From Burkholderiales bacterium (lineage in GTDB: Bacteria > Pseudomonadota > Gammaproteobacteria > Burkholderiales > WYBJ01): 64,000 nt of DNA. This document shows, in pieces, positions 7,614-64,000 of this stretch (its first letter is position 1; the number at the start of each line of letters is the position of its first letter). A program made the translations under genes and the position numbers. Below the pieces are notes generated by a model. That model was not told the DNA's origin and did no database searches. It saw only the letters and a program-made list of their open reading frames with translations. The DNA lies in NCBI GenBank assembly GCA_022841915.1, contig JALHQN010000007.1, positions 211,284 through 275,283 of the forward strand. The letters run 5' to 3'.

Positions 7614-7624
7614 GGCTTCGGGCA

Positions 7625-42457: not shown

Positions 42458-43404
42458 GCACCCGTATGAGCAACTCCGAACAGTCCACAGTGCGCGTCAG
42501 TCTCGATACACCCGGAGCAGTCGGTTCGGCGCCGGGCATGGATGTCCCGGTCGGCTACGCGCAGGCGCGTTCTTACTGGCGCGGTGTGTTTCACCGGGTA
42601 TTGCGCGACCGAGTCACCATCGGATGCACTCTGGTGCTCGGGCTGCTCGTGTTCCTGGCGATCGCGGCGCCGGTGTTGCCGCTCATCGATCCGGATGTCG
42701 CGAACTCGGGCGACCGGCTGCTACCCATCGGTTCGCCGGGCCACCTGCTCGGCACCGACGAATTGGGCCGCGACATGCTGTCCCGACTGATACACGGCGC
42801 GCGGCTCTCGCTGCTGATGGGCGTCGGGCCGGTGGCGGTTGCACTGCTCGTGGGCGGGGTCCTGGGCCTGACGGCCGGTTATCTCGGCGGGCGCACCAAC
42901 ATGATCATCATGCGGATCACGGATGTGTTTTACGCGTTTCCGTCGATTCTTCTCGCCGTGGCCATTGCCGGAGCGCTGGGGGCCGGCATCACCAACGCGC
43001 TGGTGGCGATCACGATCGTCTTCATTCCGCCCATCACGCGGGTCGTCGAAAGCGTGACGACGCAGTTGCGGTCGATGGATTTCATCGATGCAGCGCGCGC
43101 CAGTGGGGCCAGCACGTTCTCCATCATACGCACCCATATCCTGGGCAACGTGCTCGGTCCGGTGCTGGTCTATGCCACCGTACTGGTTAGCGTGGCGATC
43201 GTTATCGCAGCGGGTCTTTCCTTCATCGGGCTGGGGGCGAGTCCCCCGGAAGCCGAGTGGGGGTTGATGCTGAACACGCTGCGCCAGTCGATCTTCCTCG
43301 CGCCCTGGATCTCCTTGCTGCCCGGACTGATGATCTTCATCACCTCCATGTGCTTCAATCTGATCAGCGACGGGTTGCGGTCGGCCATGGACGTGAGGTA
43401 CTGA
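42454..43404 (+). CDS. ABC transporter permease (DppC-like)
   Basis: GSPGHLLGTDELGRDMLSRLIHGARLSLLMG; FIGLGASPPEAEWGLMLNTLRQ. Confidence 0.93.
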   Translation: MSTRMSNSEQSTVRVSLDTPGAVGSAPGMDVPVGYAQARSYWRGVFHRVLRDRVTIGCTLVLGLLVFLAIAAPVLPLIDPDVANSGDRLLPIGSPGHLLGTDELGRDMLSRLIHGARLSLLMGVGPVAVALLVGGVLGLTAGYLGGRTNMIIMRITDVFYAFPSILLAVAIAGALGAGITNALVAITIVFIPPITRVVESVTTQLRSMDFIDAARASGASTFSIIRTHILGNVLGPVLVYATVLVSVAIVIAAGLSFIGLGASPPEAEWGLMLNTLRQSIFLAPWISLLPGLMIFITSMCFNLISDGLRSAMDVRY

Positions 43405-43405
43405 G

Positions 43406-44446: not shown

Positions 44447-44493
44447 GGAGGGGGCGTCGGGCAGGTGCAAGCAATCGAACGGGCAAAGAGAAC

Positions 44494-44499
44494 TATAAT
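44494..44499 (+). promoter_or_regulatory. Consensus -10-like TATAAT upstream of MmgE/PrpD gene
   Basis: Perfect TATAAT in a GC-rich intergenic region about 30 nt before the GTG start; no good -35. Confidence 0.3.
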
Positions 44500-44528
44500 G
44501 GGGCCACGTTCCCAATGAGGTGTCGATA

Positions 44529-45902: not shown

Positions 45903-45919
45903 AGATTGCGAACACGACC

Positions 45920-46810
45920 ATGCTCAAAAGCCACGGCCGCTACGACTATTCGCCGATCGTCAGTCGGCCCGATTACAGCTGGCCCGAGGGGAAGCGCCTC
46001 GCCGTGCATTTTTCGCTCAACGTGGAGCATTTCGAGTTCGGTCAAGGCATAGGCAACGACTATGGCGTGCCGCAGGCCCAGCCGAACACGCGCAGTTATG
46101 CCTGGCGCGACTTCGGCAACCGCGTGGGTGCCTGGCGGCTGATCGAGTTGGCCGATCGATACGACATTCCGTATGCGGTGCTCACGAATACCGAGCTCTA
46201 CGACTATTGCCCCGAGTTGATGGCGGCATTCCGCAAGCGGGGCGACGAGATCGTCGGCCATGGCCGGACGAACTCGGAGCGCCAGATCGACATGAACGTC
46301 GAGCAAGAGCGCGCCTGCATTTTCGAAGCGACATCGACGATCGAGCGGCACGAGGGCCGCAAGCCTGCGGGATGGCTCGCCCCCTATATCTGCCAGACGC
46401 ACGATTCGCCCGACCTGCTCAAGGAAGCGGGCTATCGATACATGATGGATTGGCCGCTCGACGACCAGCCCGTGTGGTTCAGGACCAAGCACGGTCCGAT
46501 TCTGTCCATTCCCTATGCTCACGATCTCAACGATTCGCTCGAGTGCGTCACCCGCCGCACGCCGCCGCAGTCCTATTGCGAGAGCTTGATCGATCAGTTC
46601 GATGCTTTGCTCGAAGAGTCCGAGCGGCGTCCGCTGGTGATGCCGATCGTCTTGCACAGCTTTGTCCTGGGTCAAGCCTACCGTGCCCGGCAGTTCAGCC
46701 GTGTCGTGGAGCACATCCTGCGCCATCGTGACCGGATCTGGATGACGCGGCCAGGCGCGATCTGCTCCCATATCGAGTCGCTGCCAAAAGGGATCGTGCC
46801 CGGCAGTTGA
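45920..46810 (+). CDS. Polysaccharide deacetylase family protein (PuuE/allantoinase-like)
   Basis: MLKSHGRYDYSPIVSRPDYSWPEGKRLAVHFSLNVEHFEFG...EIVGHGRTNSERQIDMNVEQE. Confidence 0.88.
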   Translation: MLKSHGRYDYSPIVSRPDYSWPEGKRLAVHFSLNVEHFEFGQGIGNDYGVPQAQPNTRSYAWRDFGNRVGAWRLIELADRYDIPYAVLTNTELYDYCPELMAAFRKRGDEIVGHGRTNSERQIDMNVEQERACIFEATSTIERHEGRKPAGWLAPYICQTHDSPDLLKEAGYRYMMDWPLDDQPVWFRTKHGPILSIPYAHDLNDSLECVTRRTPPQSYCESLIDQFDALLEESERRPLVMPIVLHSFVLGQAYRARQFSRVVEHILRHRDRIWMTRPGAICSHIESLPKGIVPGS

Positions 46811-46846
46811 GGCGGCACGGCCGGTCCTCATACCACGAGAAATGAG

Positions 46847-47869
46847 ATGCCCATGATTCCCCGTCGTTTCGTTCGGTGCAACACGCTCCCCGCAATCGCA
46901 TGCAGCCGTGTGCTGTCCGCGACAGCGATCGCTTTGTCGTTTGTCGCCGGCCCTGTCGCGGCCGCCGATGCATATCCTTCGAAGCCGATCCGCGTCATCG
47001 TCGGCTTCGCGCCCGGCGGTTCGGCAGACTTCACCGCCAGAACGGTCGGGCAGGCGCTCACCGAGATGTTCGGTCAGCAGGTCGTGGTGGATAACCGCGC
47101 CGGAGCCTCCGGCATGATCGGGTTGAATCTTGCAGCGAACGCGGCCCCCGATGGTTACACGCTGGCCGAGGCGACGATGACGACCCACGGCATCGGGCCC
47201 AACCTGTACAAGAAGATGCCCTACGATCCGGTGAAGAGCTTCGAGCCGATCGCGTTGATGGTGCGTGTGCCTCTCGCCATGTTTGCACACGCCTCGGTGG
47301 GAGGTACGACGCTCAAGGACGTCGTCGCCTTGATCAAGGCCAACCCTCAGAAGTATCGCTACGCGAGCGCGGGCAATGGCAGTCCGCCGCATCTGGTCGC
47401 GGAACTCTTCAAGTTGAAGGCGGGTGTGGATTTGCTGCACGTGCCTTACAAGGGCACCGGCGCGGCCGTGCCCGACGTGGTATCCGGACAAATCAACTTC
47501 ATGATCGATGGTCCGCCGCCATTCCTCGGGCATGTGAAGGCAGGCCGGCTGCGAGCGTTGGCGACGGCGAACGCGAAGCGCCTGGATTCATTGCCGGAGG
47601 TGCCTACCTTTACCGAGCAGGGCTACAGCGGCATGGAGGCGGGGTTGTGGTACGGCATGCTCGCGCCCAAGGGGACGCCGCGCGCGGTCGTCGATCGGCT
47701 CAACGGCGCGATCAACCAGGCGCTCAAGCAACCGGACGTGCGCCAGCGCTTCACGGCGGCCTCGATCGAAGTCATCGGGGGATCGCCGCAGGAATTCGCC
47801 GACTACATCCAGGCCGAACTCAAGCGCTGGGGCGAGGTCGCACGCGCCGCCAACATCCGCATCGAGTGA
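46847..47869 (+). CDS. TctC/Bug family substrate-binding protein
   Basis: AYPSKPIRVIVGFAPGGSADFTARTVGQALTEMFGQQVVVDNRAGASGMIGLNLAANAAPDGYT. Confidence 0.93.
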   Translation: MPMIPRRFVRCNTLPAIACSRVLSATAIALSFVAGPVAAADAYPSKPIRVIVGFAPGGSADFTARTVGQALTEMFGQQVVVDNRAGASGMIGLNLAANAAPDGYTLAEATMTTHGIGPNLYKKMPYDPVKSFEPIALMVRVPLAMFAHASVGGTTLKDVVALIKANPQKYRYASAGNGSPPHLVAELFKLKAGVDLLHVPYKGTGAAVPDVVSGQINFMIDGPPPFLGHVKAGRLRALATANAKRLDSLPEVPTFTEQGYSGMEAGLWYGMLAPKGTPRAVVDRLNGAINQALKQPDVRQRFTAASIEVIGGSPQEFADYIQAELKRWGEVARAANIRIE

Positions 47870-47986
47870 GGCCGCGCCAAACGCAAGTCCGCACGACGTG
47901 AAGCCGCGCGGGGGTGGGCGGGTGGATGTTCGCAGCAAATGGCATGAGTCAGGACACTCGCTGCGCGAGCGGGCGCGTGCCTCGCT

Positions 47987-48964
47987 CTATTCCGGCTGGA
48001 TCTTGGCCGCAGTTGCCACCTGTGCCCACTTTTCTTTCTCCGCCAGGACGAACTTCTTGAACTGCTCCGGAGGTTCGCCTCCGGCCGTACCGCCCAAGTC
48101 GGCGAATCGCGACTTGATCTCCGGGGTCGACAGGATTTTGCTCGCCGCGCGGTAGAGGCGGTCGATGACTGCGGGCGGGGTCTTCGCCGGTGCGAAGAGG
48201 CCGAACCAGCCGGTCACTTCGAAATCGGGATAGCCGGATTCACGCATCGTCGGCACGTTGGGCAATTCGGCGGCTCGCTGCCTGCTGGTCACCGCGAGCG
48301 GGCGCATCCTGCCGTCGCGGATGAAACCCATGGTGCTGGGCAGACTGCTGAAGATCATGTTGACTTGCCCTCCGAGCACATCGCGCAGCGCCGGTCCCGT
48401 GCCCTTGTACGGCACGTGCACGAGATCGAGATTGGCTTTGAGCTTGAACAATTCCCCTGACATGTGTACCGATTGGCCTCGCCCAGAGGAGGCGAAGGAA
48501 ACCTTGCCTGGATTGGCTTTCGCGTGGGCGACCAACTCGGCGACGGTCTTCGCCGGCACGTTCGGATGGACCACCAGGACGTTGGGATTCGAGATCACCG
48601 ACGTGATGGGGATCATGTCCTCGGGCTTGTAGCCGGGGTTCTTGTAGAGGGCGTAGTTGATCGCGTTGGGGCCGATGTTGCCCATCATGATCGTGTAGCC
48701 GTCGGCATTGGAGGACAGCAAGGTTCTCACGCCGATGATGCCGGCGCCGCCTGCGCGGTTGTCGACGACGATGGGCTGGCCCAGTTCGATGGCCATCTTC
48801 TCGCCCAGGGCGCGCGCGGCGATGTCGGTGGTGCCGCCCGGCGCAGCGGGCACGATGATGCGGACCGGCTTGGAAGGAAAGGCTTCGGCTGCGTGCGCGT
48901 GCATCGCGTTGGCTGCGACGAGGGCAACGAAGAACGGGGCAATGGCAAAACGGGGTTCCATCAT
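47987..48964 (-). CDS. TctC/Bug family substrate-binding protein
   Basis: MMEPRFAIAPFFVALVAANAMHAHAAEAFPSKPVRIIVPAAPGGTTDIAARALGEKMAIELGQPIVVDNRAGGAG. Confidence 0.93.
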   Translation of the reverse strand: MMEPRFAIAPFFVALVAANAMHAHAAEAFPSKPVRIIVPAAPGGTTDIAARALGEKMAIELGQPIVVDNRAGGAGIIGVRTLLSSNADGYTIMMGNIGPNAINYALYKNPGYKPEDMIPITSVISNPNVLVVHPNVPAKTVAELVAHAKANPGKVSFASSGRGQSVHMSGELFKLKANLDLVHVPYKGTGPALRDVLGGQVNMIFSSLPSTMGFIRDGRMRPLAVTSRQRAAELPNVPTMRESGYPDFEVTGWFGLFAPAKTPPAVIDRLYRAASKILSTPEIKSRFADLGGTAGGEPPEQFKKFVLAEKEKWAQVATAAKIQPE

Positions 48965-49129
48965 GATCTCCTCCTGTTCGGGTGTGCGGACTTCCTGAAT
49001 GGCCGCAGCGCGACGCGCCGGGCACGCAGCGCAAGAGCTATGCGCTGACCATCCGTGCGCTGCCACCGTTCGGCCGCAGCGTGGAGCGGTTTATCGTGGG
49101 TACGATCGCGTCGTGGCGCAGCGCGAAGG

Positions 49130-49960
49130 TCAGCAGGGCTTGGTTCCGGCGACAGTGACTCGGTGCCCGTAGCGCTTCTGCGGATAGTAGTCCCACATGG
49201 CCAGATGCATCGTGCAGCGATTGTCCCAGAAGGCGATCGAGTTGGGCTGCCACTTGAATCTGCACTTGAACTCGTCCTGCTCCGAATGTCGGTACAGCAT
49301 GTCGAGCAGCGCGTCGCTTTCCAGGCGCGACATGCCCGCGATGTGGGAGGTGAAGTTGCGGTTGACGAAGAGCGCCTTGCGTCCGGTCACCGGATGGGTG
49401 CGCACCACGGGGTGTTCGGCGCGGGGCGCGGGGGTCGTCAAGGTCTTGCCCTGACGGATTCGGTAGACCTGGTCGCCATCGTGCACGGCCGTGAGTCCGT
49501 CGATGAGGCGGCGCACCGGATCGGATAGCGTTTCGTAGGCGCGGTACATGTTGATGAACAGGGTATCGCCACCGCCGTTATCCGGGATCTTGTGCAAATA
49601 GAGAATGGAGCCCATGGGCGGGACAGGATTGCAGGTGACGTCGGAGTGCCAGACTTCGCCTGCGACGTACTTCGAATGTTCGTCCGCCTTGATCTCGATG
49701 ATCTCCGGATGCCCGGCCATCTGCGTGGTGGGATGGATGTCCAGTTCCCCGAAGCGGCGGCCGAAAGCCTTGTGCTGCTCGATCGTCAGGTGCTGGTCGC
49801 GGAAGAAAATTACCAGATGACGCATGAGCGCTGCGTGGATCTCGTCGAACTGCTGCCCGGTGAGCGGTTGGCCGAGATCGACGCCGAAGATCTCGGCGCC
49901 TATCGTCGGGGTGAGGGGCTTGACCTCGATCGTTCGGCATTCCATGCGGTCGTCCGGCAT
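49130..49960 (-). CDS. TauD/TfdA family Fe(II)/2-oxoglutarate dioxygenase
   Basis: EVWHSDVTCNPVPPMGSILY (HxD), WDNRCTMHLAMWDYYPQKRYGHRVTVAG (distal His/Arg). Confidence 0.92.
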   Translation of the reverse strand: MPDDRMECRTIEVKPLTPTIGAEIFGVDLGQPLTGQQFDEIHAALMRHLVIFFRDQHLTIEQHKAFGRRFGELDIHPTTQMAGHPEIIEIKADEHSKYVAGEVWHSDVTCNPVPPMGSILYLHKIPDNGGGDTLFINMYRAYETLSDPVRRLIDGLTAVHDGDQVYRIRQGKTLTTPAPRAEHPVVRTHPVTGRKALFVNRNFTSHIAGMSRLESDALLDMLYRHSEQDEFKCRFKWQPNSIAFWDNRCTMHLAMWDYYPQKRYGHRVTVAGTKPC

Positions 49961-50301
49961 CGCCTACGTCTCCTCGATCTGCGGGCCTCGACATTCGCGC
50001 CATCCGATGGCGATGCGAGGCTGCGCTGGGTTGTGTGGCCTGCCTCGGGCCAGCGACGACACGATTGTAGCCAGAAACAAGGCGGTCAAGCTCAAGGTGC
50101 CCGGCCAGGTTCGCTGTTTGTCGGCCGCTCGACCTCCTGCCGATGGGGCCGCAGTTCGGCGCTGAATCCAACGGCGGAACAGCGACCGCCTTGTCTGAAG
50201 GCCTATAGTAGAATCGACGGCGGTGCCGACGCGGGCCCGAGGGCGGATCAGCGGATCAGCTCTCGCGTCGTCGACTCAGGTGCACCGAGCCATCCAACAG
50301 A

Positions 50302-51594
50302 GTGTCCTCCATCATGGGTATGACCGCAGTCGAGAAAGTCCTCGCGCGCACCTCGGGGCGTGCTTCGGTGCGTCCGGGCGAGGTCGTTCATCCTGTGCCC
50401 GATTTCATCATGATTCACGACGGTCTCGTGCGCGCCGCTAAGCGCGAACTCGATGCGCTCGGCATCGATCGACTGGCCTCGCCCGAGAAGGTGATCATGG
50501 TGACGGACCACGAAGTGCTCTACGGCAGCGCGCGAGCCGCCGAGTTCGGCGCCATCAACCGCAATGCCGCGAAATCCTGGGGCGTCGGTCGCTTCTTCGA
50601 CGTGGGTCGCGGGGGGCACGGTCATCTGTTCCCGATGGAGTCGGGGATGCTGCTGCCCGGCATGTTCTATTTCGACAACGATCGGCACTCGACCAATGCG
50701 GGGGCGATCGGCGCGTTCGGTTTTCGCATGGGCGCGGAAATCAGCCGCGTGCTCGCGACCGGGACCAACTGGGTGAGCGTGCCCAAGAGCGTTCGGATCA
50801 GCCTGCGCGGCAAGCTCAAGCCGCACGTCTATGCGCGCGATATCGGGTTCTATCTTGCCCGTCTCATCAAGGCGGGTGAGCTCGATCTCGATCTCGACTA
50901 CCGGGTGGTCGAATTCGCGGGGGATATCGATCAGTTCGGCCTGAGCGAGCGCACGGCGCTGTGCAATTCTCCGACCGAACTCGGGGCTTACGGGGTGTTC
51001 TTTGCGCCCTCGCAAGCCTTGCTCGCCTTTGCCGCCGAGCGCGCCCAGCAATCGTTCACACCGATCTATGCCGATCCGGACGCGCAGTACGAGCGGGAAG
51101 TCGCCGTGGACATCGAGGACCTCGAGCCCCAAGTCGTCCGGCCGGGCGGCATCCAGACTTCGGTCGACGTGAGCGAGGCCGTGGGGCCGCAAATCGGGCA
51201 CGCATTCCTGGGTGCCTGCGGCTCGGGCATGTACGAAGATTTCGTGACTGCGGCCGCCTTTCTCAAGGGACGGCGCGTGCCCGATCACGTTCGTCTCTTC
51301 ATCGCGCCAGGCACCGAGTCGAGCACGCGGCGCATGTCCGCCGAAGGATTGCTCGATGTCTTCATGCAGGCGGGGGCAATCCTGCTTCCTGCCGGATGCG
51401 GCCCATGCAACGACGCCGTGGTCGGTCCGTTGCACGACGGTGAAGTTTCGATTTCGACTGCGTCGAACTCCAACGCCGGACGTTTCGGATCGAAGAAGGC
51501 GCAACTCTACCTCGGCAGTCCGGCCACGGTTGCCGCATCCGCAGTGGCGGGCGCTATCGTCGATCCGCGCACGGCCGTTCGGGAGAGCGCATGA
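50302..51594 (+). CDS. Aconitase-superfamily large subunit (3-isopropylmalate dehydratase large-subunit-like, divergent)
   Basis: PDFIMIHDGLVRAAKREL...NDRHSTNAGAIGAFGFRMGAEISRVLATG...GACGSGMYEDF...LPAGCGPCNDAVVGPL. Confidence 0.88.
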   Translation: MSSIMGMTAVEKVLARTSGRASVRPGEVVHPVPDFIMIHDGLVRAAKRELDALGIDRLASPEKVIMVTDHEVLYGSARAAEFGAINRNAAKSWGVGRFFDVGRGGHGHLFPMESGMLLPGMFYFDNDRHSTNAGAIGAFGFRMGAEISRVLATGTNWVSVPKSVRISLRGKLKPHVYARDIGFYLARLIKAGELDLDLDYRVVEFAGDIDQFGLSERTALCNSPTELGAYGVFFAPSQALLAFAAERAQQSFTPIYADPDAQYEREVAVDIEDLEPQVVRPGGIQTSVDVSEAVGPQIGHAFLGACGSGMYEDFVTAAAFLKGRRVPDHVRLFIAPGTESSTRRMSAEGLLDVFMQAGAILLPAGCGPCNDAVVGPLHDGEVSISTASNSNAGRFGSKKAQLYLGSPATVAASAVAGAIVDPRTAVRESA

Positions 51595-51665
51595 ATCTTT
51601 TCGTGATCGAGCGGGGCGGCGCCGGCGGTTCCTGCTACCGGCCGGGCAGGGCATGTCATGAGTGA
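51591..51665 (+). CDS. Candidate 24-codon ORF bridging the aconitase-like subunits (MNLFVIERGGAGGSCYRPGRACHE)
   Basis: ATG overlaps the upstream TGA; its TGA lies inside the start of the downstream gene. Confidence 0.2.
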   Translation: MNLFVIERGGAGGSCYRPGRACHE

Positions 51666-52200
51666 TTTTTCCTGGATTCTTCAAGGCCGCTGCTATCGTC
51701 TCGGCCACAATGTGCCGCACGCCGGCGGGGTGATTCCCGATAGTCTCATCACCAGCCGCGAGATCGATCCGCAAAAGCTCGTGCCTCGGCTGTTCGAGGA
51801 AACAGACCCCGGCTTTCACGAGCGCGCTCGACCCGGCGACATCATCGTCGCGGGGCGCAAGTTCGGGATGGGGCCGAAGATGAACGGCTATATCGCGATG
51901 CAGGCGCTCGGGCTCGGGCTCGTGTGCGAATCGATGCCGTATCTCGCCTATCGCGCGGCTATCGGCTGCGGATTGCGGGTACTGACCGATTGTGAGGGCG
52001 TGACGGAGGCCTGCGAAACGGGCGATCTGCTCGAGGTCGACTTCGCCAGCGGGCGCTTCGTCAATCGCACTCGGGGCGTCGAACTGCGCTTCCCGCTGCT
52101 GCCGCCCGCTCTGCAGGAAATCGTTTCGGTCGGCGGCAATGTCGGTTGGCTCGAGACGTGGTGGCGGTCCCAGTCGAGTGCCGGGCGGTCGCCTTCCTAG
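51658..52200 (+). CDS. Aconitase-superfamily small (swivel) subunit (3-isopropylmalate dehydratase small-subunit-like, divergent)
   Basis: GRCYRLGHNVPHAGGVIPDSLITSREIDPQKLVPRLFE...GDIIVAGRKFGMGPKMNGYIAMQALG. Confidence 0.88.
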   Translation: MSDFSWILQGRCYRLGHNVPHAGGVIPDSLITSREIDPQKLVPRLFEETDPGFHERARPGDIIVAGRKFGMGPKMNGYIAMQALGLGLVCESMPYLAYRAAIGCGLRVLTDCEGVTEACETGDLLEVDFASGRFVNRTRGVELRFPLLPPALQEIVSVGGNVGWLETWWRSQSSAGRSPS

Positions 52201-52218
52201 GGCTCGAGTTCGGCAGGA

Positions 52219-53175
52219 TCACTCTGCGCGTATCTGGGCGGCCACCACGAGTTTCCCCCACTTGCTCGCTTCGGTCGTAAGGTAGCGGGCAAATTCTGCG
52301 GGTGTGTCCCCGATCGGTTCGAGACCGGCGGCGTTCATGCGCTCGGCGATCGCACTTTCCTTCAGCACCGCGGCCACTTCGCGTTGCAGGCGCTCGATGA
52401 CGGCGCGCGACGTGCGAGCGGGGACGACGATGCCATTCCAGTTGGTAGCCTCGTAGCCCGGAACGCCCGATTCGGCGATCGTCGGCAACTCGGGAAACAG
52501 TGGCGAGCGTTTTCCCGTGCCGACCGCGAGGCCGCGCAAGCGGCCCGCGCGAACGTGCGGTTGCGCCGTCGTCAGATTGGCCATCATGAACGAAAGGCGT
52601 CCAGCCACGAGGTCGGCCACAGCAGGCGCGCCGCCCTTGTAGGGCACGTGCGTGGCCTCGACGCCGGCCATGTGAGTGAACAGTGCCGCAGCGAGATGCG
52701 TGGCCCCGCCCACGCCACTGGAGCCGTAAGTCAGTTTGCCGGGATGCGCCTTCAGTAATGCGATCAGTTCCTTCGTCGAAGTCGCCGCGACGGTGGGGTG
52801 CGCGGCGAGCATGTTGCTCGAGCGGGCGACGTTGGTGACTGCCGCGAAGTCCCGCTGCAGAGCGTAGGGCACCTTTGCGTGCAGGGAAGGGTTCACCACC
52901 AAGGGGGGCGTGGCCATCAGCAGCGTATGGCCGTCGGCACTCGCGCGCGCGGCGATCTCGGTGCCGATGATCGTCCCAGCGCCGGTGCGATTGTCCACCA
53001 CGAACTGCTGGCCGAGACGCTCGCTCAGTCGGACGCCCAGCAGTCGGGCGACCAGATCCGTGGAGCCGCCGGCGGAGTAGGGCACGATGAGGCGGACAGG
53101 CCGCTCGGGCCAGTCGGCTGCCGCGGGCGAAAGGTTCAGCAAGGCAAGTGGAAGTGCGAAGACGAGCTTGAGCAT
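52219..53175 (-). CDS. TctC/Bug family substrate-binding protein
   Basis: MLKLVFALPLALLNLSPAAADWPERPVRLIVPYSAGGSTDLVARLLGVRLSERLGQQFVVDNRTGAGTIIGTEIAARASADGHT. Confidence 0.93.
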   Translation of the reverse strand: MLKLVFALPLALLNLSPAAADWPERPVRLIVPYSAGGSTDLVARLLGVRLSERLGQQFVVDNRTGAGTIIGTEIAARASADGHTLLMATPPLVVNPSLHAKVPYALQRDFAAVTNVARSSNMLAAHPTVAATSTKELIALLKAHPGKLTYGSSGVGGATHLAAALFTHMAGVEATHVPYKGGAPAVADLVAGRLSFMMANLTTAQPHVRAGRLRGLAVGTGKRSPLFPELPTIAESGVPGYEATNWNGIVVPARTSRAVIERLQREVAAVLKESAIAERMNAAGLEPIGDTPAEFARYLTTEASKWGKLVVAAQIRAE

Positions 53176-53485
53176 GGATCCGCCAAGTATGAGTCAGTCG
53201 TTTGGGAGAGCGAGAGCTATCGTTTAGCAAGATGCAAGCCATGTGGACCATCACGCGATGCCGCCCGATCCGCGTGTGCCGCTTCGCAAATGCACTGTGC
53301 GCTCGGTGTATAGCAAGGGCGCTGACTGCCTTCGGAACGCAGAGCGAATTTCCGAGTTGGAATGCCGAGCGAGGCGGCGGCCGGCTGCGCTACGCTCCGG
53401 CGCGAGCGCGTGCTGATATCCTCGCTCCCTATCGATTCGAACTTTTTGTCGGCGGCCTCTAGCCTCGCAGATCCGTGCACTTTGC

Positions 53486-54139
53486 ATGCAGGCACTTCGT
53501 CGTCGATGGGTTGAGAATGCTGCAGCGCCGGAACGAGACATGAACGTTGCCAAGACCACGACCCTGATGCCGTACAGCGATGGGAAGGCTGCCGATGAGA
53601 TCCTTGCCCAAGTGCGCCACTGGTTGGAGCGTGCGGTCATCGGGCTCAACCTGTGCCCGTTCGCCAAGGCGGTCCACAGCAAGAAGCAGATACGTTACGC
53701 GCTCACCTCAGCTCGGACTGCGGATGAGTTGTTGGCGGAACTGGCGCATGAGCTGACGTTGCTGGACGGTATCGATCCGAGCGAAGTCGACACCGTGCTG
53801 CTCATACACCCGCAGGTGCTGACCGAATTCCTCGACTATCACTTCTTCCTCGGCGAGGCCAACGCCGCCTTGCGCAACCTCGGGTTCTCGGGCGTATTCC
53901 AGATCGCCAGCTTTCATCCAGGATACGAGTTCGCCGGTAGCAGTCCCGACGACATAGAAAACTATACCAACCGCTCTCCCTATCCGATGTTGCATCTGCT
54001 GCGCGAGGCGAGCCTCGACCGTGCGACAGCCGCTTATCCGGACGCTGCCGCCATATTCGAGCGGAACATCGAGACCCTGCGCAGCCTCGGTCATGCGGGC
54101 TGGCAGCAGCTGTGGACTGAAGGGCAGGTCAAGAAGTAG
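53486..54139 (+). CDS. DUF1415-like protein
   Basis: HWLERAVIGLNLCPFAKAVHSKKQIRYALTSA...HPQVLTEFLDYHFFLGEANAALRNLGFSGVFQIASFHPGYEFAGSSPDDIENYTNRSPYPMLHLLREASL. Confidence 0.85.
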   Translation: MQALRRRWVENAAAPERDMNVAKTTTLMPYSDGKAADEILAQVRHWLERAVIGLNLCPFAKAVHSKKQIRYALTSARTADELLAELAHELTLLDGIDPSEVDTVLLIHPQVLTEFLDYHFFLGEANAALRNLGFSGVFQIASFHPGYEFAGSSPDDIENYTNRSPYPMLHLLREASLDRATAAYPDAAAIFERNIETLRSLGHAGWQQLWTEGQVKK

Positions 54140-54484
54140 GGCAGCGGGTTCTTGCACGATCGTCCGCAGCCCTTGCGCCCGGCCGACGGGGAGTCCCGCC
54201 AGAAGCAATGTGTGATCCAAGGCTCGGCATCTTGCGGGTCCGTCGATGGATGGAGCACTCGCCGCGTCGATGATGCGCTCACGGCCAGCGGCGTCACGTA
54301 AGCCAAGTCACGAGTGCGCTAACGGGCGGCGACCGGAATGCATTCGATTGCCTGGGGAGGTCTGATATCTTGTCGTGATCAGGCGAAGGCACCAGCCATT
54401 GCAGCAAGTTGTCCGTGTCCAATCTTCATCGGTGAGGGGCATAGGGCCAACGAAGCGCGGACAAGCATTCAGGAGGGGTTCACG

Positions 54485-55645
54485 ATGCATTCATTGTTTC
54501 CATCGGTACCTGTGGAACCGACCGCCGAGAAATTCGCTCTGCAGCCCGTGTCCACGGAGCAGGCGTGGTATGGACCGGCGCTGGCACAGCGCCCCGCAGT
54601 CTGGACTCACGTGTTGTCCGAGGCGGACTGCGCAGAACTGCGCGACGCCATCGCCGCCGTGGAAAGCAGAGGGCTCGACGTGGTCGAGATCCGTGCCGAG
54701 GATTTCCGATTGCCTCGTCTGGGGGGTGTGCTGCAGGCGATGCGCAAGGATCTGCTGCAAGGGCGCGGTTTCAGCTTGGTGCGTGGATTTCCCTCGGAGG
54801 GCTTGACCGCATTGCAGCGCGCCATCGGCTTTTTTGGCATCGGTGCGCACTTGGGGAAGGCCGTGTCGCAGAACGCCAAGGGCCACGCGCTGGGCCACGT
54901 CGCCGATCTCGGATTCGATTACAGTCAGCCCACGTCCCGAGGCTATCAGACCAATGTCCGGCTGCCGTATCACACCGACGCGGCCGACGTCGTTGGGCTG
55001 TTGTGCGTGTGCACCGCCAAATCCGGGGGCATGAGCAGTCTGGTCAGTTCGGTCACGCTCTACAACGAGATGCTGAAACGGCGCCCGGATCTGGTGCGGG
55101 TGTTGATGGGGCCGACTTACCGCGATCGCAGGGGAGAAATCCCGCCCGGCAAGGGCCCGTGGTACGTGCTGCCGGTCTTCAATCCGCATCACGGCCTGAT
55201 GATCACTTCCTATGTGCGCAGCGCTATCCGCAAGGCGCAGCGGTTTCCGGAAGTGCCGCGGATATCGCCGGCACTGAACGAGGCGATGGATCTGCTGGAT
55301 GCGCTGGCGGAGAGCCCGGAACTTCACCTGGACATGAATCTGGAGCCGGGCGACCTGCAGTTCGCCAGCAACCATTTCATTCTGCATTCGCGCACGACCT
55401 ACGAAGATCATCCGGAGCCCGAGCGCCGTCGTCATCTGTTGCGTCTGTGGCTATCCTGCGAAGGCGGGCCTGCGCTACCGCGAGTATTCGACAACTACAC
55501 GGGGCTGGACGGGAGCGGGCGTCCGATGGGGTTGCTGCTCGACGGTGTGCGGCTGAACGCGCCGCTGGAGCTGGAAGACGGCGGGCCGGGCGCCTCGGAC
55601 TTGCGGGTGGCCGCTGTGGCGAGCCCTGCGCACTCGCCTTCCTAG
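54485..55645 (+). CDS. TauD/TfdA family dioxygenase
   Basis: RLPYHTDAADVVGLLCV (HxD), NHFILHSRTTYEDHPEPERRRHLLRLWLS (distal His/Arg); AGGAGG RBS. Confidence 0.9.
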   Translation: MHSLFPSVPVEPTAEKFALQPVSTEQAWYGPALAQRPAVWTHVLSEADCAELRDAIAAVESRGLDVVEIRAEDFRLPRLGGVLQAMRKDLLQGRGFSLVRGFPSEGLTALQRAIGFFGIGAHLGKAVSQNAKGHALGHVADLGFDYSQPTSRGYQTNVRLPYHTDAADVVGLLCVCTAKSGGMSSLVSSVTLYNEMLKRRPDLVRVLMGPTYRDRRGEIPPGKGPWYVLPVFNPHHGLMITSYVRSAIRKAQRFPEVPRISPALNEAMDLLDALAESPELHLDMNLEPGDLQFASNHFILHSRTTYEDHPEPERRRHLLRLWLSCEGGPALPRVFDNYTGLDGSGRPMGLLLDGVRLNAPLELEDGGPGASDLRVAAVASPAHSPS

Positions 55646-55809
55646 CCGGTTCCCAGACCGTATTCCCGCGGGTTCGCTTCGGAACTCGGTGTGCTTGTGG
55701 TTGGGTAGCAGGGCGCTCGGCAGTGGCCCCGGGCGCCTGCGGCAGCGTCGGGTTCTTCACGGACAACCCGTCGCGGCCTTCGTCCGATGCGGCGACGGGA
55801 TCGCCCCCG

Positions 55810-56805
55810 CTATTCGGTCTTGATGCCCGCCGTTTCGACCACCCGTTTCCAGCGTTCCACTTCGGTCGCGATCATCTTGCGGAACTGTGCCGGGGTGTTG
55901 GGGGCAGGTTCGAGTCCTGCTCCGATCAACCGTTCGCGCATGTCGGGCGAGGCGATGGCGCGATGCAGTTCCTTGTGCAGCCGCTGGAGCACGGGCTCTG
56001 GGGTTCCCCCTGTGCTGACCACGCTGTACCAATTGGTGACGACGACGTCCGAGAGGCCGATCTCGGTGAACGTCGGGGTGTCCGGTAGCAGCGATACGCG
56101 TTTCGCACCGGCGGAACCCAGCACCTTGAGCCGTCCGGCGTTCACGAGCGGCAGGGCGGGCGCGAGTGATGTCATGGTCGCCTGGATCTGACCGGAAGCA
56201 ACGTCGGCAATCGCAGGGCCCACACTCTTGTAGGGCACGTGCACCATATTGATGCTTGCACGCAAGCGAAAGAGTTCACCCGACAGATGGGTGCCGCTTC
56301 CGGTTCCGGCGGAGCCCATGCTGAGTTTGCCAGGCTGTGCTTTGGCTGCGGCGATGAATTCCTTCAGGCCGCTGGCGTAGGGCAGGCTGGGATTCACCAC
56401 GAGCAGATAGGGTGTTTCCGCGACGACCGAGATCGGATCGAAGTCCTTCAGCGGATCGTATTTCGCTTTCTTGTAGACCGCCGGATTGATCGTGAAGCCC
56501 GAGTCTGCAAGCAGGAGCGTGTATCCGTCACGCGCGGCACGGGCCGCGATTTCGGTGCCCACGAGCGAAGCTGCCCCGGCCCGGTTGTCGACGACGACCG
56601 TTTGGCCCATCTGCTCGGTGAGCTTGTTTCCGACAAGTCGACCGACGAAGTCGGAGCCGCCGCCCGCGCCGAACGGCACGATGAGTCGGATGGGGCGTGT
56701 CGGATAGGATTGTGCGGCGGTCGAAGCGGCGACGAACAACCAGGCCGCCGAGGCGGCGGTGAAGATGCGCAATGCTGCGGCACGGCCGCTTTTCCGATTT
56801 GTCAT
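55810..56805 (-). CDS. TctC/Bug family substrate-binding protein
   Basis: MTNRKSGRAAALRIFTAASAAWLFVAASTAAQSYPTRPIRLIVPFGAGGGSDFVGRLVGNKLTEQMGQTVVVDNRAGAAS. Confidence 0.93.
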   Translation of the reverse strand: MTNRKSGRAAALRIFTAASAAWLFVAASTAAQSYPTRPIRLIVPFGAGGGSDFVGRLVGNKLTEQMGQTVVVDNRAGAASLVGTEIAARAARDGYTLLLADSGFTINPAVYKKAKYDPLKDFDPISVVAETPYLLVVNPSLPYASGLKEFIAAAKAQPGKLSMGSAGTGSGTHLSGELFRLRASINMVHVPYKSVGPAIADVASGQIQATMTSLAPALPLVNAGRLKVLGSAGAKRVSLLPDTPTFTEIGLSDVVVTNWYSVVSTGGTPEPVLQRLHKELHRAIASPDMRERLIGAGLEPAPNTPAQFRKMIATEVERWKRVVETAGIKTE

Positions 56806-57048
56806 GGGTTCTCCCTGATGAACGCAGTGAATCTGCCTGCGTGCGGCGCAGGATTGCTGCATTGCAGTGCAAGAAGCGGGCCATCGGGGCTGGATGGATG
56901 ATTTCGCCAGCGTGAAACTACGGGCGAAGGCGATATGGCTGGCAGCGTTCAATACCCACACGGGCGAGCGCTTTGAAAGCGGCGGAGCGAGGCGCCCGCG
57001 GTGCTCTGGCCGGGAAAACCGGCGCCAGAACTTATCAGTCGGCCAGCA

Positions 57049-57486
57049 TCAGGCGTCCAGATCGATGAGCATGAGTCCGGATGCAGGGTCGTACTTCTTG
57101 CGCAAATGGCGCGGCGCTTCTTCGAGCATCACCTCCAGCGTCGGACGCACCCGCGCCGCCGTCAAATGCCCACCGCGGGCCGTGCCATCCCGCGTGCCGA
57201 GGACGACGTGAGCGTGGACTTTAGGCTGCGATCCATCCAACGCGATATCGCCCAGGAGCGCGAGGACCTCGACCTGTTCTTGCACGTGGATCGGTACGTA
57301 GGCCTTCGTCTCCCAGTCGAAATAGGCGAGCGTCGCCTCGCTGAAGGCGCCGATGGCCGTGAAGCGCGATGCCGTCAAGGCCTCGTTCTCGGCGAACTGT
57401 GTCAGGAGTTCGATTGGGTTGTCTCCGGTCTCGAAGATCAGCGCATAAGTTCGTTCGATGGATTGGTTCAATCGTTTCGCGCGCAA
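57049..57486 (-). CDS. PPC/DUF296 domain protein
   Basis: YALIFETGDNPIELLTQFAENEALTASRFTAIGAFSEATLAYFD...KVHAHVVLGTRDGTARGGHLTAARVRPTLEVMLEE. Confidence 0.9.
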   Translation of the reverse strand: MRAKRLNQSIERTYALIFETGDNPIELLTQFAENEALTASRFTAIGAFSEATLAYFDWETKAYVPIHVQEQVEVLALLGDIALDGSQPKVHAHVVLGTRDGTARGGHLTAARVRPTLEVMLEEAPRHLRKKYDPASGLMLIDLDA

Positions 57487-57899: not shown

Positions 57900-58007
57900 A
57901 GATGTGCGCGGCTTTGCTGCGTGCTAGTTCACGGGGTCGTTCCAACCGCCCTGCGTCATAGCGTTCCTGCCTAGCATTCGCTCAGACGACTCACGGGTCG
58001 TGTGCCG

Positions 58008-61000
58008 ATGGGGTGTGTGACCGCAGGCGCTGCATGGCGCGCGGGAAGCCCTCTAGGGTCGAGAAGACAAACGATCGTGCTTCGCTGGCTACTTAAACAT
58101 GTGCGCACGCAGCCGCCCGACAGGCCGGCGAGCGGAGCCGCGCATGGTGCCCGCCGAGAGCCCGATGCACCGGATTTCAAGCTCGAGCAACTCGAGCCCC
58201 GTGTGCTGTTGTCGGCCGACAACCCTCTTCTTGCAGAGCTGTCTCGCCTGGCTGTCGATGCGGAAAACGCGGATACCAGGCGGTATGCCGAAGCCCATAT
58301 ACAGCAGTTGGACGTTGCCACCGGTGCGGAATTGAACGATGCAGCCCAGCCCGATCGCGGCGGCGCAGCATCCGATTCCGTCAGTGTCTCGTGGGGCGAT
58401 GGTTGGCGAACCGGGGAGTCCCATGCTGCGGTCGAAACTGCACCCGACCTCGTCGACGACGAACTGCAGGTCGCGCTCGCGCCGGAGATCGGCCAGGGCA
58501 CGGAGGGGCTGGTTGTTTCAGCCCAGATGGCCGCATCGGCAACTTCTTTCAAATCTACCTTCGATGAACTGAAGACGGACCCAAGTCTTATTGAGTCCAT
58601 CGAGTCAGCAATCCCTGCCAGTGCCATTTCGGCCTTCGAATTGCCGCGGGGTCCTCCGGCGGACGACGCGCCGGGGGCCACGGACGAAACGGCCGATGTA
58701 CGATATTTCAATGGTTTAACTCATTACGATTCGCCCCAGGGAGACGAAGGGGGGCGGCTTCATCTTTTGTATCGGTCCGATGCGAGATTCCTTGAGGCCG
58801 ATCGCTCTCGCGCAATCGAATTTTCTTCCTACGATGCCCTGGATACAGGTGTCGTCGAAGCCCTCCTCAGCGAAGCCGTGGCACTCTGGCGCAGTGCCGG
58901 TGTCGACGACGCGTTAACGGCCCGGCTCGCAAACCTCTCGATCGATATCGCTGACCTCCCTGGCGGCCAACTCGCCTTTGTCGAGGGTGCGCGCATCACT
59001 CTGGACGTGAATGCGGCCGGGCGCGGTTGGTTCATCGACCTGACACCTTCGGACCATGGCGAGTTCGGGCTGGTGCGCGATCAATGGCGCCTTGCAGCAG
59101 AGTTCGGGTCTCCCGCCCAGCCCCACGTAGACCTGCTGACCGTGCTCGTGCACGAGGTGGGTCACGTTCTCGGCTTCGAGCATGATTCCGGCATTGCGGT
59201 CATGGATGCGCTGCTCTCTCATGGCGAGCGGATATTGCCCGGAGGCGTTGCTCCGGAACTTCTCGATCCGGCTCGGCCGAGCGTGTCTGCTGCGGCGACG
59301 ATACCGCCCGTGCTGGACCTTTCCGATACGTTGAACGATGCGGCGGCCATCGTCATCCGGCTGAATGCCGATGGGACACTGGACGTCTCGGGTACGTTGT
59401 CGGGCGACAACGCATCTGGTCTCGCGGGCATCACCCAGATCGTCGGGAACCCGCTTGCCAGCATCGAACTCGTGGGGCCGGACCTTGCCGCAGTTTGGAC
59501 GCTCAGCGGCGCGACCGGCGGTACGCTGACGGCTAACGGGCTCGACAGCATTGCATTCTCTTTCGTCGATACGCTCGCGGGCGGCGCGCTTTCGGATGAG
59601 TTTTACTTAACCGCCGCCTACACCCTCGCCGTCGCCATCCAGGGCAATGGCGGTGACGACCGACTGACGATTTCCAGCGGCAGTACCGCCGCCGTGGATT
59701 TCCACGGCGGCGCCGGCAACGCAGACACCGTGCTCAATCGCAAAGGCACATCGGGTGCCGTGACAACCAGCGCAGTCGAAACTTTCATCGATCGTCCGCT
59801 GTTGTTCATTCCCGGATTTGCCGGCACCACCTTCAATAGTTCACACCCGACCGATCCTGGGCTGGAAGGGGATTCGGCGCTGGAGGAGTGGCTGCTCAAT
59901 CGCGGCGTCCACCCTGATCGCCTGGTCCTGGAGGCGCTTGCCGAGGCGTACTCCGACATCGTCGAGACCTTCGATAACATCGGCTACGTCGACGTTCGCG
60001 ACGGCGGTTTGGGAACGCTGTTTCCCGCCTTGTGGGATTGGCGGGTGCCGGTTGCCGCAACTGATGGGGTAGACGACGGCCTGCTGAGCAATGTCGATGC
60101 GGCATCGTTGCTGGACGCCACCTTCGACACGAGCCTGGATTATCTGGCCTACTGGATGGACCGAGCCGTCACCGATTGGGTGGCGCTCACCGGGACAGCG
60201 CCGGACTCTGTCGACATGGTGACCCACAGCACGGGCGGCTTGGTGGCACGCAGCTACATTCAGAGTGCGGCTTACACCGAAAGCGATGTGGACAGTTTGC
60301 TGCCGGTGCACATGCTGATCCAGACCGGCGTGCCCAACCAGGGCACCGGATCGCCGTTCGTGATGTTGAACAACGATTTCAGCGTCAAGTCGTCGACGAG
60401 AGGCTTGGCGATGGTCCTGGGCGACGCCTGGGCGTTGATGCAAGGCGGAGCGACGATTCGCAATCCCGACGGCACGCCGCTGACCGCGGCGACCGAAGCC
60501 GAGTTCGTGCAGAAGTACGTGCAGACATTCAGTGATCTGCTGGCGATCTATCCTTTGCTGGACGATCTCGACGATGGTGTCTTCGAGTTGCGCCCGCTAC
60601 TGCCGTCGGATGTCGTCTACAACCATCTGCTGGCCGATTTGAATGCCCATGCGCTCGATGCCTTCGTGGCTCGGGGCGTTCTCGAGGTCGTAGCAGACAA
60701 CTTGCCTGCCGATCTTGTCGCGGCCGATCTCGATTCGAATGGTGTCGTCGAGTTCAGCGAATTGCTGGCGCACTACGAGCAAGGCACCCCCGATGGTCTG
60801 CTGAGTGTCGTGGCCGATGCACTTCCGAATGCGCTCGCAATCGCGGATGTCGGTGACGACCTTGGCGGTTCCGCCGACGGCATCGTGAGCTACGCGGAAC
60901 TGCTTAGATACTACGATCGCCAGACCTACATCGTTTACAGCAGTAGCGTCGACACCCCGGATCTGCTTACCCGGCATATGGGCCTCGAGCTTTCGGCCGG

Positions 61001-64000
61001 GCTGCAGAACGAGATCCTGAACCTCAGCGAGACCCTCCTGGGCCACTTCCCGAGCAGCGCCGAGGTCTGGTACCAACTCACCGATCACCCGAGTGGCGGT
61101 GATGGCACCGTTTCCACGATTTCAGCGCGCGACGGTTTCAGCGCCGGACGCCTCATCGACGTGGATGCCCTCGTCGTCGGCGAGGTCGATCACGGCGACA
61201 TCGTCTACAACGAGACCTCGCAGCGCAAGATCGTCGAGTTGCTCGGGGTGACGGACGCCGCGGTGGCGCAGATTTCCACCGGGCTGTTGTTGAGCAAGGC
61301 ACAAACCGCAAAGCGTCTGATCGATCTCGGCCTGCTCGACCCGGTCGAATTGGCGCGCGACGCCTACGATGGTGCGATGCACAAAATCGCCGGGTTGAAG
61401 GCGCTTGTCGACACCGACAGTACGCTGAACACGCGTATCCCCATCGTCGACAAAAGTCTTGCTCAGCTCATGAACGAGGCTGCAACAGGCATTGGCCTCG
61501 ATACCTTCTTCGCCAAGTTCCCCGCATCGGTGGGCGCGGGTGTGTCGGCCATCGATTTCGCCTCTCTGGAGACGGCGATCGAGGGGGCGTTGGGTTTGTC
61601 TTCCTCCGAGTTCTCGATCGTCGATGATCTCAATGCGACCGGCAAGCTGAGCCTGGTCTTCGACCTCACACGCTCCAATACGTATACCCGCAACGTGAGC
61701 TTTGGCGAGGCGGGCAGCCCTCTAGACGGCTCGGTGGATCTGAGCGTGTCGCTGAACATGGCTCTCGACTTCAGCATCGTGCTGGATCTGGGGACTGCAC
61801 TGACACCGAGCGGGGAAGGGGATGGCACGGCGGGCCTGGAGCTTATTCTGCGGACATTCGATTTCGGCGCGACCTTGAGTTCGTCCGATATCGACATCGC
61901 GCTTGGGTACGAGGGCCTAGGCGGCGTCACTGTCCAGAATGGCACGGCAAATATCGGCGCAAACGTCCGCGTGGCGTTCCAGGATGTCGACGGGACCCCC
62001 GATTCATTGCGGCTGGTGCAGTTATTCGTGCCGTCCACGTACCGCAGTCTGGTCGATTTCGACATCTCCGCGTCCGCGCTGGATTTCAACCTGCCGGTGA
62101 CCGCGGCGATCAACACCAGTGCGCTGCAGCTGAGTGGCTCGGGAACGTTGTCCATCGACGCTGCCAGCGTATTCGCGGCTCAGGCGCCCACGGTGCTGTT
62201 CCAACTTAACGGTGCGACGCTCGCTATCGCAGATTTCGTCGATCTGAGCGGCAATCTGGAGATCACTACGGATGCCGGCGGTCGGCTGCTGATCGCGGGG
62301 TCGGTCACCAATGGATCTAGCGGCACGCTCGTCCGCGCGGGTCCGGTAACCATCAGCGGCTCCGGCGAGTTTGCGCTCAGCCGTCAGACCGTCGATGTCG
62401 ACACCGACGGGAACGGCGCCCCGGATTTGCTCGCAGCAACCCTCGATACGGTTGCCTTGTCGCTTACTAGCGGCACCGTAGCGGTGGATCAAGTTGCAAG
62501 CCTGTCTGTTTCGGGCCAACTGGCGCTGGTCAGGGTCACGCCTGCCGGGCAGACAACAGCCCGTTACACCGCACTCAAGATGGGTAGTGTCACGGTTACC
62601 GCATCGACAGCCGACGCGGCGGACTTCGGCTTGTCGGGTACGCTGAGCCTCACGAGCCTCGACTACAACGCGGCTGCTCTCGGGCATGAGCGCATCGATT
62701 GGACCACCGCCTTCGATCTCGATGCAGATTCCGCGCCTGAGGTACTCGATCCCGGTGCCGACCTGCCCACGCCTGCGATCCTTGCGATCGATTTGCCGGC
62801 CACGCTCCAATACAGAGTGGCCGGTACCGTCAGTGGCGACACCAACAATGGCAACCGGCTGTTGACCGCAGGCCCGGTGAGCCTCAGCGGCACGGCCGAT
62901 TTCGCGTCGACTCGTCATACGGTAGACGTCGATACCGATGGTGACGGAACAGCGGATCTCATCGGCGCCACCCTGGAAATGTTCGGCCTCTCGATGACGA
63001 ACGCGAACGTCGTGGTCGATCAGCTTGCCACCTTGACGCTGACGGGGCAGCTCGGGTTGGTACGGGTGATGGCGTCTGGCCAGACCAACAGTCGCTACAG
63101 CGCGCTTCGGATGGGTAACGTCACGGTGAGCGCTTCGACCGCCAATGCGGGCGATTTCGGCCTGTCGGGTACCGTCAGCATCTCCCGGCTTGATCAAAAC
63201 AGCGCGGCCGCCGGTTTCGAGCGGTTGGACTGGGCAACGGCTTTCAACCTGGATGCCGACCCTGCACCGGAGTTACTCGACCCGGGGGCCGGCCTGCCTA
63301 CGCCAGTCGACCTGAGCGTCGATTTCGGATCGGGATTGCATTACCGGGTCAGCGGTTCGGTGACCGGCGATGCGGGCAACAACGACATCCTGCTGACGGC
63401 CGGCCCGATCACGGTGGCGGGCACGGCGGAGTTCGCGTTGAGCCGGCAGACGGTGGACGTGGATACGGATGGCAACGGTACGGCCGATCTGCTGGGGGCG
63501 CGGCTCGACACGATCGCGTTGGCGATTCCGGGCGGGCAGCCGGTCGAGGTGGTGGTGGCCGGGGTTGCGGACCTGACGGTCTCGGGCGAACTGGGGATCG
63601 CGCGAGTGACGGCCGCGGGCGAGACGACCGCACGTTACACGGCGCTGACGATGGGCAACGTCAGCGTGACGACCAATGCAGTGACGGGCGACTTCGGCCT
63701 GACGGGCACGGTGACGATCGCCACGCTGGATTACAACAGTGCCGCGCCGACCTTCACGCGTTTGGACTGGACCAAGGCGTTCGACCTCGACGCCGACGGC
63801 ACGCCGGACGTGCTCGACCCGGGCGCCGCCTTGCCGACGCCAGCCAACCTGAGCATCGACTTCACCCAGAGCTTGGCCTTGCGTGTGAGCGGCTCGGTGA
63901 CGGGCGATGCGGGCAACAACGACATCCTGCTGACGGCCGGCCCGATCACGGTGGCGGGCACGGCGGAGTTCGCGTTGAGCCGGCAGACGGTCGATGTGGA
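58008..64000 (+). CDS. Giant LEPR-XLL repeat protein with matrixin-like metalloprotease, lipase-like and EF-hand-like regions; truncated at right window edge
   Basis: Stop-free frame from 57975 to the window end; FKLEQLEPRVLLSADNPLL; HEVGHVLGFEH at 59151-59183; MVTHSTGGLVARSYIQ around 60222; ADLDSNGVVEFSELL; tandem repeats from about 62.28 kb. Start ATG 58008 or GTG 58077. Not in the ORF track. Confidence 0.9.
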   Translation, partial: MGCVTAGAAWRAGSPLGSRRQTIVLRWLLKHVRTQPPDRPASGAAHGARREPDAPDFKLEQLEPRVLLSADNPLLAELSRLAVDAENADTRRYAEAHIQQLDVATGAELNDAAQPDRGGAASDSVSVSWGDGWRTGESHAAVETAPDLVDDELQVALAPEIGQGTEGLVVSAQMAASATSFKSTFDELKTDPSLIESIESAIPASAISAFELPRGPPADDAPGATDETADVRYFNGLTHYDSPQGDEGGRLHLLYRSDARFLEADRSRAIEFSSYDALDTGVVEALLSEAVALWRSAGVDDALTARLANLSIDIADLPGGQLAFVEGARITLDVNAAGRGWFIDLTPSDHGEFGLVRDQWRLAAEFGSPAQPHVDLLTVLVHEVGHVLGFEHDSGIAVMDALLSHGERILPGGVAPELLDPARPSVSAAATIPPVLDLSDTLNDAAAIVIRLNADGTLDVSGTLSGDNASGLAGITQIVGNPLASIELVGPDLAAVWTLSGATGGTLTANGLDSIAFSFVDTLAGGALSDEFYLTAAYTLAVAIQGNGGDDRLTISSGSTAAVDFHGGAGNADTVLNRKGTSGAVTTSAVETFIDRPLLFIPGFAGTTFNSSHPTDPGLEGDSALEEWLLNRGVHPDRLVLEALAEAYSDIVETFDNIGYVDVRDGGLGTLFPALWDWRVPVAATDGVDDGLLSNVDAASLLDATFDTSLDYLAYWMDRAVTDWVALTGTAPDSVDMVTHSTGGLVARSYIQSAAYTESDVDSLLPVHMLIQTGVPNQGTGSPFVMLNNDFSVKSSTRGLAMVLGDAWALMQGGATIRNPDGTPLTAATEAEFVQKYVQTFSDLLAIYPLLDDLDDGVFELRPLLPSDVVYNHLLADLNAHALDAFVARGVLEVVADNLPADLVAADLDSNGVVEFSELLAHYEQGTPDGLLSVVADALPNALAIADVGDDLGGSADGIVSYAELLRYYDRQTYIVYSSSVDTPDLLTRHMGLELSAGLQNEILNLSETLLGHFPSSAEVWYQLTDHPSGGDGTVSTISARDGFSAGRLIDVDALVVGEVDHGDIVYNETSQRKIVELLGVTDAAVAQISTGLLLSKAQTAKRLIDLGLLDPVELARDAYDGAMHKIAGLKALVDTDSTLNTRIPIVDKSLAQLMNEAATGIGLDTFFAKFPASVGAGVSAIDFASLETAIEGALGLSSSEFSIVDDLNATGKLSLVFDLTRSNTYTRNVSFGEAGSPLDGSVDLSVSLNMALDFSIVLDLGTALTPSGEGDGTAGLELILRTFDFGATLSSSDIDIALGYEGLGGVTVQNGTANIGANVRVAFQDVDGTPDSLRLVQLFVPSTYRSLVDFDISASALDFNLPVTAAINTSALQLSGSGTLSIDAASVFAAQAPTVLFQLNGATLAIADFVDLSGNLEITTDAGGRLLIAGSVTNGSSGTLVRAGPVTISGSGEFALSRQTVDVDTDGNGAPDLLAATLDTVALSLTSGTVAVDQVASLSVSGQLALVRVTPAGQTTARYTALKMGSVTVTASTADAADFGLSGTLSLTSLDYNAAALGHERIDWTTAFDLDADSAPEVLDPGADLPTPAILAIDLPATLQYRVAGTVSGDTNNGNRLLTAGPVSLSGTADFASTRHTVDVDTDGDGTADLIGATLEMFGLSMTNANVVVDQLATLTLTGQLGLVRVMASGQTNSRYSALRMGNVTVSASTANAGDFGLSGTVSISRLDQNSAAAGFERLDWATAFNLDADPAPELLDPGAGLPTPVDLSVDFGSGLHYRVSGSVTGDAGNNDILLTAGPITVAGTAEFALSRQTVDVDTDGNGTADLLGARLDTIALAIPGGQPVEVVVAGVADLTVSGELGIARVTAAGETTARYTALTMGNVSVTTNAVTGDFGLTGTVTIATLDYNSAAPTFTRLDWTKAFDLDADGTPDVLDPGAALPTPANLSIDFTQSLALRVSGSVTGDAGNNDILLTAGPITVAGTAEFALSRQTVDV
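62278..64000 (+). repeat. Intragenic tandem repeats, 531/531/537-nt spacing (177-179 aa), truncated at window edge
   Basis: Anchor (V)DVDTDGxG at 62391, 62922, 63453 and 63990 in one frame; recurring RYTALKMGSVTV, FDLDADxxPEVLDPGA, SGSVTGD. Confidence 0.92.

Follow-up and report, generated by a model that had tools for sequence, protein, structure and literature searches.

The window analysed here is a stretch of 64,000 nucleotides from contig C7 of a draft genome in 66 contigs. The genes upstream (window positions 40045-57486) were ordinary-looking and included transporter-like genes and ORFs resembling Bug-type receptors; also upstream of the giant ORF lie a TauD-family dioxygenase (54338-55645) and a protein with a PCC domain (57049-57486). 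The window has a + strand frame without stop at 58002-63998, which confirmed the initial annotation of a stop-free frame running off the window. On the contig this frame (G000:C7:269285-280692) stays open for 3,802 codons until the contig ends; a scaffold gap of 102 N lies inside it, beginning where the window ends. We consider the frame to be coding, because four homologues share its two-enzyme region at 46-55% identity. The frame had previously been placed with its start at 58008; the GTG at 58077 is the more likely translation start, since it is preceded by GAGAAG and matches the LLRW leader of the homologues in the alignment. The window probably contains the 5' half of a giant surface protein of the LEPR-XLL class, of which about 3,800 codons are known. 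The features are collected in Table 1.

Table 1. Features of the giant ORF (window coordinates) and two loci of the export-related cassette (contig coordinates).
Feature	Position	Strand	Basis
RBS, GAGAAG, putative	58061-58066	+	sequence read, inference
Giant ORF, window part (start GTG 58077 probable; open at window end)	58077-64000	+	ORF read, homologues
LEPR-XLL motif LEQLEPRVLLSAD, residues 61-73	58182-58220	+	NF012209, 22.9 bits
Matrixin-like metzincin domain, residues ~258-424	58773-59273	+	PF00413, profile comparison
Zinc site HEVGHVLGFEH (His384, Glu385, His388, His394)	59151-59183	+	sequence read
Candidate Met-turn, Met401 (DSGIAVM)	59202-59204	+	Met in 4/5 homologues
Predicted beta-solenoid linker, residues 437-603	59310-59810	+	AlphaFold, pLDDT mostly 75-90 (model residues 180-346)
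LCAT-like alpha/beta-hydrolase (lipase) domain, residues 590-1088	59769-61265	+	PGAP1 score, hhalign
Oxyanion segment PGFAGTT	59811-59831	+	P and two G invariant in 10 aligned enzymes
WDWR motif (DWR of LCAT-like enzymes)	60033-60044	+	alignment, sequence read
HSTGG	60225-60239	+	
Nucleophile Ser743 (THSTGG)	60228-60230	+	invariant in 10 aligned enzymes
Paired EF-hand-like insert, ~85 residues, inside lipase domain	60666-60923	+	alignment, motif read
EF-hand-like loop 1, DLDSNGVVEFSE	60726-60761	+	
EF-hand-like loop 2	60855-60899	+	
GGDGTV	61095-61112	+	
Catalytic Asp1034 (GGDGTV)	61101-61103	+	invariant
EVDHGD	61182-61199	+	
Catalytic His1064 (VDHGD)	61191-61193	+	invariant; 30 residues past Asp
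Tandem repeats of 176-179 residues with DxDxDG-type calcium loops, running past the window	62334-64000	+	repeat analysis
Cassette locus L081 (G000:C10)	7266-13582		
Cassette locus L082 (G000:C31)	11584-19968		

LEPR-XLL giants rank among the longest bacterial proteins, and they were nearly absent from the literature that we searched, in which the name appears in two papers. The LEPR-XLL N-terminus proposed from the sequence was verified with the NCBIfam model NF012209 (LEPR-8K), which scored 22.9 bits at residues 59-73, above its curated threshold of 17. The window protein resembles the giants of this family in its LExLEPRxLLSAD leader, its length of thousands of residues and its repetitive modules. 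It differs from the two other LEPR giants of its own genome, as it has both a lipase and a metzincin and they have neither. A giant LEPR-XLL protein of Vibrio carries RTX and serralysin domains at its C-terminus (PMC10868602). Likewise, leader and metzincin-type protease are combined there in one giant protein, but the protease is C-terminal and accompanied by RTX, whereas in the window protein it is N-terminal and the lipase comes after it.

The metzincin-like domain scored 26.3 with PF00413 (M10) when scanned in isolation, against a cut-off of 24, and 21.8, just below the cut-off, in the scan of the longer protein. In the isolated-domain scan M10 was matched by five of five homologues, and the nearest solved proteins by profile were karilysin and MMPs. 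The initial annotation had pointed to a HExxHxxGxxH zinc site followed by a Met, and both were found. A six-frame scan of the 64-kb window found this pattern a single time, and 20,000 shuffled versions of the first 1,000 residues did not contain it at all. With matrixins (M10A, e.g. karilysin) the domain has the HExxHxxGxxH, the nearby Met and the profile match in common; it differs in that the third His and the Met vary among the homologues of the window protein. In serralysins (M10B), too, the metzincin is followed by a beta-roll or solenoid, and they were the best Foldseek matches to our two-domain model, at non-significant scores. In contrast to serralysins the window protein has no RTX array in its known residues, and a lipase comes next. 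The segment separating the two enzyme domains is predicted to form a beta-solenoid; this linker was the sole confident part of the 833-residue two-domain AlphaFold model, which had an average pLDDT of 47.

Judged by profile comparison, the domain behind the linker is an alpha/beta-hydrolase of the LCAT type. Our alignment comprised ten enzymes, the six giants plus four that stand alone; PF02450 was run on three of the latter, and all three pass it. The PGxxG segment, the Trp of DWR, HSxGG, GDGxV and one later His were invariant in all ten. The oxyanion segment, the nucleophile and the His that had been proposed earlier were all present, but the catalytic Asp had been missed. With it the triad Ser743-Asp1034-His1064 is complete, and it is invariant in six of six giants; the lipase domains of the five homologues are 42-63% identical to that of the window. 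The order PGxxG, DWR, HSxGG, GDGTV, His is the same as in LCAT and PLA2G15-type lipases (PF02450), with a spacing of 30 between Asp and His in the window domain. Unlike these lipases, the window domain scored below the Pfam cut-off, has an EF-hand-like pair between Ser and Asp and is part of a giant protein.

The window domain passed the PGAP1 alpha/beta-hydrolase family (25.3 against a cut-off of 24.3) and was not among the matches of PF02450 (LCAT) at the curated score, a family that matched three of the six homologues weakly (best E 0.022). An hhalign comparison with stand-alone enzymes of the PF02450 type gave a probability of 98.9% and an E-value of 1.2e-17 over the first ~200 columns, i.e. 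the N-terminal half. In a low-confidence AlphaFold model of the L045 core, made with the ten sequences, strands alternate with helices and the Ser sits at an elbow between strand and helix (pLDDT 47, pTM 0.49). The top Foldseek matches of this model were mostly serine hydrolases, none below E 0.001. Neither of the two AlphaFold models, both with an average pLDDT of 47, had a PDB match at E 0.001, and the PDB sequence search with the lipase returned weak matches only.

Two EF-hand-like loops had been described as a region of their own; they are present at those sites but lie inside the lipase domain, in an insert between the catalytic Ser and Asp. Only two of the six homologous proteins have this insert, the window protein and L044. 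By eye, loop 1 fits the canonical EF-hand loop of 12 residues and loop 2 is longer. The EF-hand_1 family scored 12.0 bits on the insert (E 0.16), below its curated score of 25.4.

The repeats already noticed in the initial annotation begin at residue 1445 and amount to at least 12 full tandem copies; up to the contig end we counted 12 full and two partial ones. Many of them contain one or two calcium loops of the DxDxDG type. At the DNA level the last copies share 95-100% identity, a sign of recent expansion that also explains the break in the assembly. Not a single Cys is encoded between the GTG at 58077 and the end of the contig, the sole Cys of the frame preceding that start, and the net charge of this part of the chain is about -290. 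Chains that are free of Cys and strongly negative are typical of proteins exported unfolded, such as RTX adhesins.

In principle, misassembly could have joined an unrelated protease gene and lipase gene, since the genome is a draft of 66 contigs and the giant gene contains an N gap. However, leader, metzincin and lipase occur in the same order in four relatives from separate assemblies (L044, L045, G137 and G174), with 46-55% identity across the junction, and the N gap lies downstream of both enzymes. Such a chimera is barely conceivable and was refuted by these four homologues. L045 is a Burkholderiales MAG, and G137 and G174 belong to one genus in the same order as the window genome. A fifth relative, G253, has the leader and the lipase and no metzincin. 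L044 (CALFSW010000248.1) comes from a MAG labelled Verrucomicrobiales and is a 13-kb contig taken up nearly entirely by one giant frame. Its frame shares 55% identity with the window protein across the two enzymes, and its presence under that label may reflect either gene transfer or mis-binning. In G253 (L049-L050) the LEPR giant is complete, with 7,867 codons; its C-terminus is cohesin-like, as is the product of a separate gene downstream.

The full-length lipase family was found in four of 399 genomes of the order, own genome counted, and was absent from the three other genomes of the same genus. In further samples, 369 genomes from the class and 399 from the phylum, it was seen in the own genome only, the other matches being short ones around the nucleophile elbow. 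As few genomes carry the lipase family and four relatives share the module order, the combination is rare yet recurrent. The architecture had been called unusual, and rare it is, but not unique. We regard the window protein as a rare variant of the barely studied class of LEPR-XLL giants rather than as wholly new. An origin from phages or plasmids was also considered and rejected: no relative was found in IMG/VR with lipase patterns, and none in PLSDB by tblastn.

The relatives also bear on what the metzincin does. The initial annotation had suggested self-processing, and an active protease might cut the giant chain and release the lipase or an adhesin stalk. The intact HExxHxxGxxH and Met of the window protein and the M10 score of the isolated domain are in favour of this. 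However, two of the five metzincin-bearing proteins have a changed zinc site (third His to Asn in L045, Met to Ile in L044), whereas the lipase triad does not vary, and G253 has the lipase without any metzincin. Other giants of the order, in which the metzincin-like module alone is frequent, often have a changed third ligand as well. Self-processing is thus not supported, and we consider it distinctly unlikely. The same variation of the zinc ligands beside an invariant triad would fit a degenerate, non-catalytic module with a structural or binding role, leaving the lipase as sole enzyme. But the window protein, G174, G137 and L044 have every zinc ligand in place, and the active-site Glu is invariant across the homologues, which makes this explanation somewhat doubtful. 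Since the triad is invariant in all six proteins and the zinc site is not, the lipase is the better supported of the two enzymes, and we consider activity much more probable for the lipase than for the protease. Metzincin-like modules were also seen in open frames of 14,056 codons (G031:C2) and 12,249 codons (G051:C1).

Contig C10 probably carries the 3' half of the protein. In the own genome there are exactly three LEPR N-termini, on C7, C8 and C9, and three C-terminal modules, on C8, C9 and C10; the C-termini of the latter three giants align together. The C-terminal module is cohesin-like by Pfam in the copies of C9 and G253. Because the giants of C8 and C9 are each complete, open from end to end, the 5' end on C7 and the 3' end on C10 were paired by elimination. 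C10 starts inside a giant frame of 2,382 codons that includes the C-terminal module. A search of the own genome for the C-terminal part of L044, meant to point to the 3' end, found no match; it had no positive control. The complete LEPR giants are a frame of 4,129 codons on C8 (L054) and one of 8,661 codons on C9 (L051-L053). Behind the C9 giant lies a gene for a small secreted protein that is cohesin-like and ends in a PEP-CTERM-like tail; each of these two matches falls just short of its Pfam cut-off.

Directly after the C10 giant we found genes for GAF-HlyD (632 aa), PqqD-M50-HlyD (714 aa) and a short SecA (672 aa). This set is a recurrent cassette, consisting of GAF-HlyD, PqqD-M50-HlyD and a SecA of ~665 aa, often joined by HlyD and TolC and frequently located beside genes for giant repetitive proteins. 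In addition to the two loci in Table 1, of which the copy on C31 of the own genome is accompanied by TolC and another HlyD, it was found at L084, L086, L087, L088, L092, L094 and L095. Giant frames adjoin it in G174:C46 (LEPLEPRILYAAD), G174:C59 (LEARVLHSAD) and G137:C224, and in G051 it is one gene (SapC) away from a giant frame of 10,327 codons. In G253:C35 and G003:C16 the cassette has no adjacent giant, and the giants of C8, C9 and G253 are located away from any such cassette. The linkage was seen while following leads, with no background count, and is for that reason suggestive only. G003, a genome of the same genus, holds an orthologous cassette with 76-78% DNA identity; as neither a giant nor the window genes adjoin it, synteny gives no support to the join of C7 and C10.

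The short SecA (~665 aa) scored below all SecA and SecA2 cut-offs. The accessory SecA (SecA2) systems resemble the cassette in that a second SecA is coded beside genes for repetitive surface proteins; they differ from it, since here HlyD, M50 and TolC are the partners and the SecA is of ~665 aa. Our literature search, with subscription papers mostly outside its coverage, yielded nothing relevant on a SecA-HlyD-M50 system or on SecA3/4/5, which is a weak absence. The presumed export of the protein is indirectly supported by the absent Cys and the linkage to the cassette. Tentatively, LEPR-XLL might be the address label of a separate export pathway, with the lipase-protease giant as one cargo. 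In that reading, the short SecA would work with the GAF-HlyD and PqqD-M50-HlyD adaptors, an extra HlyD and TolC, and would bring Cys-free proteins of roughly 4,000-14,000 residues from the cytoplasm to the cell surface. Alternatively, an ordinary RTX type I system (ABC-HlyD-TolC) could export the chain, which resembles RTX adhesins in being acidic, free of Cys and equipped with calcium-type loops; one strong type I HlyD is present in the genome (C6:36914-38173). We consider this route unlikely, as the window protein lacks an RTX nonapeptide array as far as its frame can be followed on the contig, the giants of C8, C9 and C10 have C-termini that are cohesin-like rather than RTX, and no ABC exporter was noticed beside the LEPR giants examined, whose neighbours are only partly annotated.

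Taken together, we propose that the protein is a lipase tethered to the cell surface and dependent on calcium, which carries an accessory protease or binding domain and leaves the cell through the SecA cassette; we give this explanation an even chance. The head would be the LCAT-like lipase or phospholipase, positioned after the metzincin-like domain and the beta-solenoid linker on a long, repetitive, calcium-binding stalk; in favour of this, the lipase is kept in G253, where the metzincin is absent. The Cys-free chain would be exported unfolded, its LEPR-XLL leader being recognised by the short SecA with the HlyD/M50 adaptors and TolC, and would fold outside the cell on calcium. The C-terminal cohesin-like part may keep the protein attached to the cell, where the tethered lipase could act on lipids of other cells or of detritus; both the attachment and the substrate are guesses. 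The metzincin would serve as an accessory protease or as a binding module.

The complete lipase triad gives the LEPR-XLL class a function that can be tested, and the linked SecA/HlyD/M50 cassette provides a testable hypothesis for how such giants exit the cell. Of larger interest is a possible dedicated SecA-HlyD-M50 export route.
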